48,886 bases of DNA from Calditrichota bacterium (GTDB lineage Bacteria; Calditrichota; Calditrichia; Calditrichales; Calditrichaceae): positions 1-48,886 of the forward strand of contig JAJRSO010000009.1 in the NCBI GenBank assembly GCA_024278755.1, read 5' to 3'. The translations under genes and the position numbers were made by a program. This document shows positions 26,315 to 33,533 of the stretch, in pieces. Positions within the stretch are counted from its first letter, which is position 1. The number at the start of each line of letters is the position of its first letter. Below the pieces are notes generated by a model, which had not been told where the DNA came from, made no database searches, and was given only the letters and a program-made list of their open reading frames with translations.

Positions 26315-26541
26315 AATCAGAAATGACCTTTTGTGTGAAAGGTGCATTTTTACGAAGCTGTTCAAAAAGGTCATAAAAAGCAAAAAGAGTTGAAAAAAGA
26401 GAAGTAAACCTCCCGGTTTTTCGTGTAAAGATCCGCCGTTCGCAGTTAGGCATTAGAAAAGTCTACACATGCAAGAAAAAAAATATTTATTTGCGGAGCG
26501 GGATGCAGGATTTTACTTTTATGATTTTAAGGAGAAGAAAG

Positions 26542-26937
26542 ATGAAAAAAAATATTTTGGTCTCAATTATTTTATGCGTATTAATTGGGTTTTTATCCGC
26601 ACAAAAAATAAACGGGCCGTCGATTCATTTTAAAAAAACAGAAGTGGATTTTAAACAGGTTCCGCCGGACACATTACTACATTATACCTTTGAGTTTCAA
26701 AATAGGGGAACGGACACCCTGTCCATTTTAAATGTACGCCCCGGCTGAGGCTGCACAGCCGTACTTCTGAGTTCAGAAGAAATTTTACCGGGCGACTTTG
26801 GGAAAATAAAAGCGGAATATAAAACAAAAAAAGTACAAGGCCCCTTTCGCAAATCAATAAAAGTATATAGTAATGATAATAAAAACCCGGTGGTTCATTT
26901 AAGTTTTTCGGGCATTGTAAGGGGAAAAAGCAGATAG
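26542..26937 (+). CDS. DUF1573 protein, candidate selenoprotein (TGA at a Cys position), with apparent frameshift
   Basis: An exported protein with an N-terminal signal (ILVSIILCVLIGFLSAQ) and a DUF1573 domain (Ig-like). The family motif is CGCT after a 'v.ps/pG' strand; here the first Cys is an in-frame TGA (26746-26748, codon 69): NVRPG-TGA-GCTAV. The frame then continues with the normal domain (EEILPGDFGKI, KSIKVYSNDN). A 6-bp hairpin 16 bases after the TGA (26764-26779) fits a bacterial SECIS element, so Sec is likely. Near 26880 the frame breaks: the homologous ending NPVVHLSFSG lies in another frame and reaches TAG 26937, whereas the unshifted frame ends at TAA 26901. One A seems missing from an A-run; this is either a real frameshift or an error. 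GGAGAAG precedes the ATG. An acyltransferase gene follows after 23 bases. Confidence 0.75.
26764..26779 (+). promoter_or_regulatory. Candidate SECIS element for the DUF1573 TGA
   Basis: CTTCTG (26764-26769) pairs with CAGAAG (26774-26779) around the loop AGTT. The loop starts 22 bases after the TGA and has a G at its second position. Bacterial SECIS hairpins need an apical loop with a G about 16-37 bases after the UGA, so the position and shape fit. Confidence 0.65.
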
Positions 26938-27635: not shown

Positions 27636-28151
27636 CTATTTTTTATGTTGCCAACAATATTTGGAACCAGGGGCCGCGTTTCGTTTGCAACGGGTTCCCT
27701 GCTCTGTTGTAGCCGCACATTGCCGTTTTGATCCTTCTCGTACTTTTCGTTTTGTAGCGGAGAGTTTTTTACCGCTGCGTTTAGAATTTTTTTGCGAAGC
27801 ATTCTTTAGATTTTTTTTAGCAGTAGCCTTTTTATTTTTTGTAGCGTTTAAAGTTTTTTTGCCTTTAACTTTTTTACCTGCTTTTTTTGCGGAAGCTTTA
27901 CTTTTCTTCCCTTTTTTTGTTCTTATTTTTTTCTTAGCAGACTTGGTTTTTTTGCTCGCCTTTTTACCGGCTTTCTTTTTAACAGACTTGGTTTTTTTCT
28001 TCGGCTTACTCTGGTTTGCTGTTTTAACAATAGGATCTGCAACAGATGACAATGCGGTTCCGGATGCAGCCTGAACCGGATTTGTACCAAGCAATAAAAG
28101 TATTGCCAGCGAAAGGGTTAAGAAAAAGGATTTGATTCTACGTATAAACAT
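27636..28151 (-). CDS. Exported Lys-rich protein with C-terminal DUF5763-like Cys/His motif
   Basis: A 171-aa protein with a signal peptide (FFLTLSLAILLLLGTNPVQA), then about 100 residues of low complexity rich in Lys, Ala, Ser and Thr (KKKTKSVKKKAGKK-type repeats, like the tails of histone H1-like proteins). It ends with a compact motif C-A-A-T-T-E-Q-G-T-R-C then YCWQH, which matches the small C-x-T-x-G-x-C ... YCxQH domain (DUF5763-like), probably a zinc-binding knuckle. Unlike histone-like proteins it is predicted to be exported, so it may bind polyanions outside the cell. It ends in TAG. Confidence 0.75.
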   Translation of the reverse strand: MFIRRIKSFFLTLSLAILLLLGTNPVQAASGTALSSVADPIVKTANQSKPKKKTKSVKKKAGKKASKKTKSAKKKIRTKKGKKSKASAKKAGKKVKGKKTLNATKNKKATAKKNLKNASQKNSKRSGKKLSATKRKVREGSKRQCAATTEQGTRCKRNAAPGSKYCWQHKK

Positions 28152-29076: not shown

Positions 29077-29418
29077 ATGATCAAATTATATGGAATCCCT
29101 AACTGACAGCAAATTCGTAAAACCCGTGCGGTTTTGGAAGAAAATAATATCGAATACGAATTTGTAAACTTTAAAAAAACACCGGTAGGCGAAGACTTTA
29201 TTCGTGACGTAGTACATCAACTGGGGATGGATGTGGTGTTAAACAGTAAAGGCGCTACCTATCGGAAGCTCGGTCTGAAAAAAATGGATTTAAAAGAAGA
29301 AGACCTGCTGCAGTGGCTGGTAAAGGAACAGGGGATGATCAAACGTCCGTTAATTGAGCATAAAGGACGTTTTTGGATTGGTTTTGATGAAGAGGGAATT
29401 TTAGGCTTTTTAAAATAG
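29077..29418 (+). CDS. ArsC/Spx-family reductase, candidate selenoprotein (TGA at catalytic Cys)
   Basis: A 113-aa thioredoxin-fold protein of the ArsC/Spx/YffB family. The frame from ATG 29077 reads MIKLYGIPN-TGA-QQIRKTRAV. Relatives have YGIxNC, so the TGA (29104-29106, codon 10) sits at the catalytic Cys. The family continues normally (LEENNIEYEFVNFKKTP, LVKEQGMIKRPLIEH, FWIGFDEEGILGF). A hairpin with a 6-bp stem 12 bases after the TGA (29119-29135) fits a SECIS element, so Sec is likely. A reading that starts downstream at 29134 would lack the first beta strand and the active site and has no ribosome site. The family includes arsenate reductases and redox regulators; which one this is cannot be told. 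It ends in TAG. Confidence 0.85.
29119..29135 (+). promoter_or_regulatory. Candidate SECIS element for the ArsC-like TGA
   Basis: AAAACC (29119-29124) pairs with GGTTTT (29130-29135) around the loop CGTGC. The loop starts 19 bases after the TGA and has a G at its second position, which fits bacterial SECIS geometry. Confidence 0.65.
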
Positions 29419-30615: not shown

Positions 30616-31818
30616 TTGTTCCATTCTGAAACTTTTTGGGAGGAGAAACCGGATGTAAACGAGAATAAAACGATTTTATTCTCCGAAAAAAATGAAACGC
30701 AACGCTGGCTGCATGTTTTACTGAATTTTTGCGCCGCGCCGCTTTACCTTATTAATCTGAATATGGCACCCGGAATTTTTAGCGCGCTATCACAAGCAAA
30801 CTTGCATATTGTTCAACCTTTTTCGGCCCGGAGACCGGAAACACAAATTGCCGGCGCTCTGGCCGATGTGGATATCTATGACTATCACAAGGCCGTCGAT
30901 TCCATCCTGTCTTCCGTGCGTCTGTTGCTTGCCAGCAGCGCCAATGTTCAGGCAGATTTATTTATGGCCCCTATAGGAAAAGATTTTATATCGGTTTGGC
31001 AATTGGAAAAAGAACGTCTTAAAGCCCTACCTGTTTCGTTGTCGGAAGCAAATCAAAAAGCCTTCGCCGTTACCCGGTTTCTGATAAAACGCGGCCTGGT
31101 CGGAGCGTCCAAGGCGCTAACAAATCTGTTACAAACGGCTTTTATACATACCATCGGGCAGTTATTAAAAAAACAGAGGAATCAGGATTTTGTTGCCCTG
31201 TTTCAAAAAAATTTGCGCGCGTTGTATTCCGATTTATATATGGTTGAAAAACTTCGTTCCTTAAGCGCCGGATTAGCGAAACGATGGATGTATTACAATG
31301 ATATAACAGAGATAACGTTAAGCGATGCCCGCTCAATTATATTTCAACCACAGGACGGGTATGCGCCCAAAAAAAATAAAACCGAAATACAATTAGCCCG
31401 CTTGTTTGGCCCGGATGATATAAAAGAAACGCAGCCAGGTTTTGACGAAGAGGCTATCTGGCACGATGAAATAGGTATGCAAAGTCCGCAATTGCGAAAA
31501 ACGGGCCGGGCCGGAAAGTATTTGTTTAATCGTTTATTTACACAAAATTTAAAGAAAGAAGCAACAACATTGTTTTGGCATTGGCAGCAGGTGGACCGTT
31601 TCCTGCAAATGCCGGAGTTTGTTGGTATACAGGATGTGCGCCTTTGCCTGGTTTTGCCTGTATTCAAGATAAATGAACGCAGTGTTTCGGTTCGGGAAAT
31701 AATTTTAGAACAACTAAAGAGCAATAAATCACACTATCCCTTTAAACTTGTAAGGGATTTTATTTCGGATCGTTTAGTGGATATAATCATTTTGGAAAAG
31801 AAAAAGGAAGAACAGTAA
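30616..31818 (+). CDS. Unknown protein, C-terminal part (same frame as 30124-30501)
   Basis: The frame is open from 30502 and the first ATG is at 30616, giving 400 aa. The sequence is helical, without signal peptide or TM segments, and rich in long amphipathic helices (for example NQKAFAVTRFLIKRGLVGASKAL). I recognise no domain. Its TAA stop overlaps the ATG of the secreted nuclease gene (TAATG), which suggests translation reaches this far. The broken frame therefore looks recent or artificial. It may be a cytoplasmic partner of the membrane protein at 29476. Confidence 0.62.
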   Translation: MFHSETFWEEKPDVNENKTILFSEKNETQRWLHVLLNFCAAPLYLINLNMAPGIFSALSQANLHIVQPFSARRPETQIAGALADVDIYDYHKAVDSILSSVRLLLASSANVQADLFMAPIGKDFISVWQLEKERLKALPVSLSEANQKAFAVTRFLIKRGLVGASKALTNLLQTAFIHTIGQLLKKQRNQDFVALFQKNLRALYSDLYMVEKLRSLSAGLAKRWMYYNDITEITLSDARSIIFQPQDGYAPKKNKTEIQLARLFGPDDIKETQPGFDEEAIWHDEIGMQSPQLRKTGRAGKYLFNRLFTQNLKKEATTLFWHWQQVDRFLQMPEFVGIQDVRLCLVLPVFKINERSVSVREIILEQLKSNKSHYPFKLVRDFISDRLVDIIILEKKKEEQ

Positions 31819-33533
31819 TGCATAAACGAACCATATTTTTTTTACTCTTATTACTTGGGCAGCTAAGTGCCCAGGGAAACTGGCAGGCGGTTACCGTTTC
31901 CGATACGGTTGTTAATTTTGGGCAGGCGGTGTGTGGACAGCGGCATAGCATCTCGCTGACGCTGCAGAATAATTTAAATGAACCGGTAAATGTGCTTTCG
32001 GCGGAATTCGAAGAGAGTGAATTTACAACAGACCTCTCGGCCGCGGAGATTCCCGCTAATGGCAGCACGGGGTTTCATATTTATTTTGAAAGCAATCAAA
32101 ATGTAAATTTCAGTGATTTTTTACAAATAAGTCTGGATAAAGGAATACACGCGTTAATTGTAGAAGCGTCCGCTGAGGCGGTATATGAAAACAGCTATTA
32201 CGATGATACTCAGAATCTTTGGGGCGCCGATTTAAAAGCGGCCTTACATAATATTATTGATAATCATACGGAACTCTCTTACAGTGGCGTCTGGGATGCG
32301 TTAAAAGATACGGACGAAGATCCCAACAATGCCAACAATGTAATTTTGTTGTATACAGGCTGGTCTTATAAAAAAAGCGATCAAAATACAGGCGATCAAA
32401 ACGGCTGGAACCGCGAACATGTTTGGGCCAAATCACACGGGGATTTTGGAACCAGCGCTCCGGCAGGAACGGATATTCATCACCTAAGACCTGCGGATGT
32501 AACCGTAAACAGTAAACGCGGCAGTTTGGATTTTGATAACGGAGGCACGTTATACACAGATGACGACGGGCCAACGGAATGCCGTTATGACGGCGATTCC
32601 TGGGAACCCCGCGACGAGGTGAAAGGCGATGTGGCCCGAATGATGTATTATATGGTTGTGCGCTACGAAGGGGACGATACGTCCTATGATTTAGAGTTAG
32701 TGGACTATACGCCATCCACATCTTCTAAAGAGCCTCTCTTTGGTAAACAGTCTACCCTTTACCAGTGGCACCGGCAGGATACGGTAAGTGATTGGGAACG
32801 GCGGCGTAACGACCGTATTTATAATAATTGGCAGCACAATCGTAATCCGTTTATCGATTATCCTGCATTTGCCTCGCGTTTACCTTCGGTTTCAGGCGAA
32901 GCCTTAATTGAGGAGCCGGAGATAGCGGTTGCGCCTTTGAGTGTGGATATGGGCGAAATCCCTTTTACCACACAGGCAATGTATGCGATTGCGGTAATTA
33001 ATACCGGCAACCAAACGCTTAACGTTAGTTCTATTCAATCAACAAACCCGGATTTTACGGTGGATCAAACCAGTATGACCCTGATAGCCGAACAGTACGC
33101 CTATCTTTCGGTTTCGTTTACTTCACAGGCCGAGGAAGGCACTTTTTCTACCACCATCCAGATTAACAGCAACGATCCCGATGAAAGCCTGATGGAAATT
33201 CCGGTGACCGTTCAGGTTACAAACGGCACCAGTTTAATTGAAAAACCATCTTTGGTACAGATTTTTGAATTAGAACAAAACTATCCGAATCCGTTTAATC
33301 CATCTACGGAAATCCACTATCAGCTTTCAACGGCAGGCCGGGTAATGTTGACGGTTTTTGACGCGGGCGGAAAAATGGTTGGAATTCTGGTAAGCGAAAA
33401 TCAGAGCCCAGGCGCCCATTCGGCTGTTTTTAATTCAAACGGGTTAAGCAGCGGGGTATATTTTTACCGTCTGATGGTAACGGGAAGTAGCGGCCGTTAC
33501 GATAAAACCCGTAAAATGATTTTAATGCGCTAA
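31818..33533 (+). CDS. Secreted endonuclease I with type IX secretion C-terminal domain
   Basis: A 571-aa secreted nuclease. It has a signal peptide (FFLLLLLGQLSAQG), an Ig-like domain (about residues 25-110), the endonuclease I domain (about 125-340; WNREHVWAKSHG, DIHHLRPADVTVNSKRG and RRRNDRIYNNWQHNRNPFID, the ββα-metal motifs), and a second Ig-like domain (about 350-470; FTVDQTSMTLIAEQYAYL). The last 80 residues are a type IX secretion sorting domain: NYPNPFNPSTEIHYQL, then GMVG-type turn and SGVYFYRL. It probably degrades external DNA for nutrients or during competition. The ATG overlaps the previous stop. It ends in TAA. Confidence 0.9.
   Translation: MHKRTIFFLLLLLGQLSAQGNWQAVTVSDTVVNFGQAVCGQRHSISLTLQNNLNEPVNVLSAEFEESEFTTDLSAAEIPANGSTGFHIYFESNQNVNFSDFLQISLDKGIHALIVEASAEAVYENSYYDDTQNLWGADLKAALHNIIDNHTELSYSGVWDALKDTDEDPNNANNVILLYTGWSYKKSDQNTGDQNGWNREHVWAKSHGDFGTSAPAGTDIHHLRPADVTVNSKRGSLDFDNGGTLYTDDDGPTECRYDGDSWEPRDEVKGDVARMMYYMVVRYEGDDTSYDLELVDYTPSTSSKEPLFGKQSTLYQWHRQDTVSDWERRRNDRIYNNWQHNRNPFIDYPAFASRLPSVSGEALIEEPEIAVAPLSVDMGEIPFTTQAMYAIAVINTGNQTLNVSSIQSTNPDFTVDQTSMTLIAEQYAYLSVSFTSQAEEGTFSTTIQINSNDPDESLMEIPVTVQVTNGTSLIEKPSLVQIFELEQNYPNPFNPSTEIHYQLSTAGRVMLTVFDAGGKMVGILVSENQSPGAHSAVFNSNGLSSGVYFYRLMVTGSSGRYDKTRKMILMR

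Follow-up and report, generated by a model that had tools for sequence, protein, structure and literature searches.

Selenocysteine (Sec) forms of the DUF1573 domain have been described before. Reviews list a Sec DUF1573 protein with a UGC motif and cite a 2007 study of an Olavius algarvensis symbiont (PMC9312934, PMC13188914). This protein, OS_HP2, came from a deltaproteobacterial symbiont of O. algarvensis (Zhang and Gladyshev 2007, cited through the same two reviews), and an NCBIfam model for the Sec form exists (NF041425, OS_HP2). With these listings and the model in place, an earlier note on this DNA went too far in suggesting that this may be an undescribed selenoprotein. The gene is not a new selenoprotein family; what is new is a branch that scores below the model's cut-off and carries its own insertion signal. 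When 14 Sec proteins, including the one studied here, were scanned with NF041425, all fell below 100 bits (best E 2.1e-23), and the scores of its group were no better than those of many Cys versions. An automatic pipeline could thus cut such genes at the UGA.

The gene lies in a stretch of 48,886 nucleotides, the whole of which was analysed and is called the window here. Its features are as follows.

26542..26937, + strand: putative selenoprotein gene, signal peptide plus a single DUF1573 domain, 131 aa, Sec as residue 69 (reading frame, Pfam match and predicted fold)
26528..26538, + strand: probable ribosome binding site, AAGGAGAAGAA, an AGGAG box 5′ of the ATG at 26542, read directly
26746..26748, + strand: UGA codon very probably decoded as Sec, U69 of U69-G70-C71-T72; TGA in 15/15 orthologues, Cys in 55 others
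26764..26779, + strand: SECIS-type hairpin CTTCTG-AGTT-CAGAAG, 6-bp stem, loop AGTT, present in all 15 orthologues

The frame, as read from the sequence, runs from the ATG at 26542 through the in-frame TGA at 26746-26748 to a TAG stop at 26935-26937. Translated through the TGA, the product aligns with Pfam DUF1573 (PF07610) end to end (E 4.1e-25), and its score of 88.1 bits is above the Pfam gathering cut-off of 26.1. A signal peptide occupies approximately residues 1-20, MKKNILVSIILCVLIGFLSA, and one is predicted in nearly all Sec DUF1573 orthologues of the phylum. The earlier description of an exported DUF1573 protein agrees with both the signal peptide and the domain match, and it is from the signal peptide that we infer export. 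Structure prediction (mean pLDDT 91) gives a signal helix followed by an Ig-like beta-sandwich, and the model places Sec69 and Cys71 between strands 60-67 and 72-76. A sequence search of the product against solved structures gave no match. The best solved structural match of the predicted model is 2e6j (E 2.4e-07, TM-score 0.64), and among the structures closest to the model are PapD-like domains of HYDIN and a protein of Porphyromonas gingivalis without an assigned function. After export the product would adopt one Ig-like (HYDIN/PapD-type) beta-sandwich, in which the loop joining two strands holds the Sec-Gly-Cys pair.

In the window gene, TGA replaces the first Cys of the CGCT motif of its relatives. 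We searched 40 genomes of the window's phylum for orthologues, and 23 had a match. The site is covered by 15 of these, the window's among them, which belong to families f1 and f3; every one has TGA at the codon and a frame that is intact downstream of it. A further match, from the same genus as the window (G009), ends with its contig just past the site and is not counted among the 15; the other 7 of the 23, all in families f4-f6, encode CGCT proteins that are longer and of a different type. Each of the 55 other DUF1573 genes that were read has Cys-Gly-Cys at the site. The placement of an in-frame TGA at the first Cys of CGCT, giving U-G-C, is therefore sound; relatives do carry Cys versions, those of families f4-f6 among them, and the TGA, far from being confined to one genome, is found in 15, in each full-length orthologue together with the hairpin. 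Because the orthologues share only about 34-48% protein identity with the window protein, the TGA must be old and has been kept. In the class of an Ignavibacteriales MAG (G040; 391 genomes), no internal TGA occurred at the site among the matches listed. Two TGA matches from that class, G327 and G114, were rejected as Sec genes, their TGAs being ordinary terminal stops.

The hairpin loop begins at 26770, and 21 nt separate it from the TGA. The bacterial SECIS model calls for a loop of 3-9 nt, a stem of 4-16 bp, a G in the first two loop positions, and a loop 16-37 nt past the UGA (PMC13188914). The window hairpin agrees with it in the size of its loop, the length of its stem, the placing of the G and the 16-37 nt spacing (PMC13188914). 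Against the model energy of -7.5 kcal/mol or lower, the 52-nt region after the UGA reaches -11.8 kcal/mol and the 28-nt hairpin core, at -6.6 kcal/mol (z -2.86), falls slightly short. An Rfam scan of the window at gathering thresholds returned no match. By itself the hairpin is weak evidence for Sec decoding, because 29 of the 1214 TGA triplets in the window precede a hairpin of equal quality and the energy of the 52-nt region is not unusual (z -0.66). On sequence grounds, it is conservation across the orthologues, not the hairpin of any single sequence, that decides the case.

This conservation is seen at several levels. The 6-bp SECIS-like hairpin originally noted 3′ of the TGA is kept in 15/15 orthologues, with a compensatory pair change. 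The codons CTG-AGT-TCA are identical in all 15, though Leu and Ser could each be encoded in six ways, and other invariant residues near the hairpin (Gly, Ile) are encoded by three or four codons. The chance of one sequence choosing CTG-AGT-TCA at the codon usage of the window is 0.0036, a figure that is not multiplied over the orthologues given their shared descent; other synonymous sites have changed at such divergence. In three genomes (G004, G014, G023) the third stem pair changed from U-A to C-G on both sides, and one of the three has lost the outer (first) pair. The 3′ half of the third-pair change turns Glu into Gly, so here the protein yielded to the RNA. An RNA pair kept at the price of a Glu-to-Gly replacement is an example of SECIS constraint on a protein.

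The residues LLSS that follow CGCT were found in none of the Cys versions read, bar a partial match in L048. That gene (L048 3129-3521), an Ignavibacteriales DUF1573 of the Cys form, reads CGCTATLLSD, and its LLSS-like stretch possibly reflects a Sec-to-Cys reversion or chance.

For the hairpin to act, SelB carrying Sec-tRNA-Sec would bind it just 3′ of the UGA, and selenocysteine would be inserted at the first position of the CGCT motif. The genome of the window has the means. It carries a tRNA-Sec with anticodon TCA, SelA (502 bits), SelB (338.5 bits) and two selD genes, so the sel genes that the reading calls for (tRNA-Sec, selA, selB, selD) were all found. The second selD (L089, G000:C53:18790-19725) carries a TGA within its frame, in SCAGU, which is the known Sec form of SelD. 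SelB scored above cut-off in 14 of the 15 genomes with a Sec DUF1573 gene; in the other, G010 (89% complete), SelB was not found. In a sister family, f2, none of the six genomes has SelB above cut-off or a Sec DUF1573 gene.

A second Sec gene belongs to the same locus, 2.1 kb downstream of the DUF1573 gene.

29077..29418, + strand: putative ArsC/YffB-like Sec gene; UGA 29104-29106 at the catalytic Cys; hairpin AAAACC-CGTGC-GGTTTT

Its TGA occurs in four genomes (the window's own, G000, and G009, G010 and G005), and the codon is Cys in the other relatives with the motif recovered, including the SelB-less f2 genomes. In G005 the stem is altered on both sides with pairing kept (AAAAGC-AGGTC-GCTTTT). 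This recurrence in G009, G010 and G005 bears out the note's statement that two selenoprotein genes share one locus. In the window, the DUF1573 gene neighbours genes for a MATE transporter and for an acyltransferase, the latter being the next gene. A constant operon around the Sec DUF1573 orthologues was not found; neighbours differ among the loci compared.

Two other genes of the window may be recorded here. At 31818-33533 (+) lies a secreted, endonuclease I-like protein with an Ig-like domain and, by eye, a type IX secretion-like C-terminal tail; it has a weak DUF1573 match at 32940-33188, with no CGC motif. At 27636-28151 (-) lies a histone H1-like protein, very rich in lysine and alanine, with a Cys-containing C-terminal tail and an apparent signal peptide.

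A TGA is one base from TGC or TGT, and draft assemblies seem to make up most of the genomes searched, so it has to be considered that a recent nonsense mutation has broken the gene, or that the sequence is in error and the gene truly reads TGC or TGT. The probability of this is negligible: the same TGA stands in 15 separate genomes, which belong to two families and conserve both the hairpin and the protein sequence beyond the codon. For the same reason, its presence in 15 separate genomes, assembly error at the TGA is very unlikely, and we rejected both pseudogene and sequencing error on the strength of 15 orthologues with an intact downstream frame. Only marginally more credible is a general reassignment of UGA in the lineage, or its read-through with a near-cognate tRNA, with no selenium involved. 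An in-frame TGA alone does not tell which residue is inserted, but TGA is the stop in 5 of 38 window genes, the genome has the full Sec machinery, and the in-frame TGAs found (DUF1573, ArsC-like, SelD) fall at Cys positions, with hairpins 3′ of the first two. In addition, the SelB-less relatives have Cys in the ArsC-like gene. General reassignment was rejected because TGA also serves as a normal stop and the other in-frame TGAs stand at Cys positions. Taken together, 26542-26937 very probably represents selenocysteine decoding in an exported protein.

In G001, G002, G004 and G013 (L127, L132, L137, L138), the gene that comes straight after Sec DUF1573 encodes an exported MsrB. These are 4 of the 14 loci with enough downstream sequence; they come from two genera, with three of the four in one genus. 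The window's genome encodes an exported MsrB-MsrA fusion elsewhere than the DUF1573 locus. We consider that the window protein probably has a redox role outside the cytoplasm, as Sec at a conserved Cys-x-Cys suggests, and a periplasmic redox role is the most likely one because exported MsrB lies just 3′ in those 4 of 14 loci. The Sec-Gly-Cys pair would form an extracytoplasmic redox centre alternating between selenol/thiol and selenenylsulfide. The likeliest partner would be an exported methionine sulfoxide reductase, a tentative proposal drawn from gene order in four genomes and the weakest step of the model. In our literature search no DUF1573 protein turned up with a redox assay, and on DUF1573 function the search returned two reviews and one iron-stimulon study mentioning the domain, with nothing further. 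The MsrB neighbours offer a first testable function for a domain with a conserved Cys-x-Cys.

Other functions would also fit an exported Sec-Gly-Cys protein. It is quite possible that the protein is redox-active in the periplasm with a partner other than Msr, for example in disulfide repair or peroxide removal, since MsrB adjacency is confined to two genera and the window gene itself sits beside a transporter and an acyltransferase; what speaks for Msr is that, among the loci compared, no redox enzyme but MsrB recurs immediately 3′ and in the same orientation. Less likely is a site that binds a metal or soft ligand (such as Hg, As or Cu) instead of redox cycling. In its favour, metal binding has been proposed for some predicted Sec proteins (PMC13188914), the window protein has the fold of an Ig-like sandwich rather than of a thioredoxin, and the nearby second Sec gene is ArsC-like. 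However, no metal-resistance neighbour recurs in the 15 loci, and MsrB is the sole redox enzyme that recurs beside the DUF1573 gene.

A second group of putative Sec DUF1573 genes came from the phylum of a Candidatus Krumholzibacteriia MAG (G042), where 22 further DUF1573 genes (L164, L165, L167, L169, L172, L176-L192) have TGA at the same codon. In three genomes of that phylum (G513, G464, G465), Cys DUF1573 copies adjoin the Sec copy. Both groups have UGC at the same codon, but the frames of the second group are longer (mostly about 300-420 aa or more), and in most of its genes the hairpin loop starts 38-39 nt after the UGA and is coded in PPGxEG, as against 21 nt and LLSS in the window group. 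That spacing exceeds the range of the SECIS model by one or two bases. The hairpin of the second group shows double changes at two pairs (9 cells), and a further short helix nearer the TGA (GTGGCC/GGTCAT, 11-nt loop) may also take part. On NF041425 the second-group proteins score 85-98 bits, closer to OS_HP2 than the window group.

Trees of DUF1573 rest on about 108 columns, and many of their forks are weak. A tree uniting both Sec groups was rejected (p-AU 4.7e-05), and one with the window group as a single clade was not (p 0.39). Since the two Sec groups do not form one clade and their hairpins differ in position, our data suggest that DUF1573 acquired Sec repeatedly, with hairpins made anew; Sec loss and hairpin relocation are a possible alternative. 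The fullest version of this model is that DUF1573 gained Sec at the same residue at least twice, with the SECIS at about +21 (LLSS) in one case and about +38 nt (PPGxEG) in the other, and that the window-group protein acts outside the cytoplasm as selenol donor to an exported methionine sulfoxide reductase. As a whole, we regard this combination as rather doubtful. Two unlike hairpin positions serving one Sec codon in one family provide a way to study SECIS origin and the limits that a SECIS sets on its protein.

The window protein can also be set beside known proteins. It has its fold in common with the Ig-like (PapD-like) domains of HYDIN, CFA65 and VesB, and Pfam PF22544 also matched; to our knowledge, those domains have no known redox function. 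With the Cys DUF1573 (CGCT) proteins of Bacteroidota, Ignavibacteriota and Fibrobacterota it shares the domain and, in most of them, a signal peptide; these proteins have CGC at the Sec site, with Cys rather than Sec, and are without the LLSS-coded hairpin. OS_HP2, compared here via its model and the review listings, differs in that the window protein reaches 74.9 bits against the NF041425 curated cut-off of 100. Like the window protein, OS_HP2 belongs to the DUF1573 family and has Sec at the first position of UGC.
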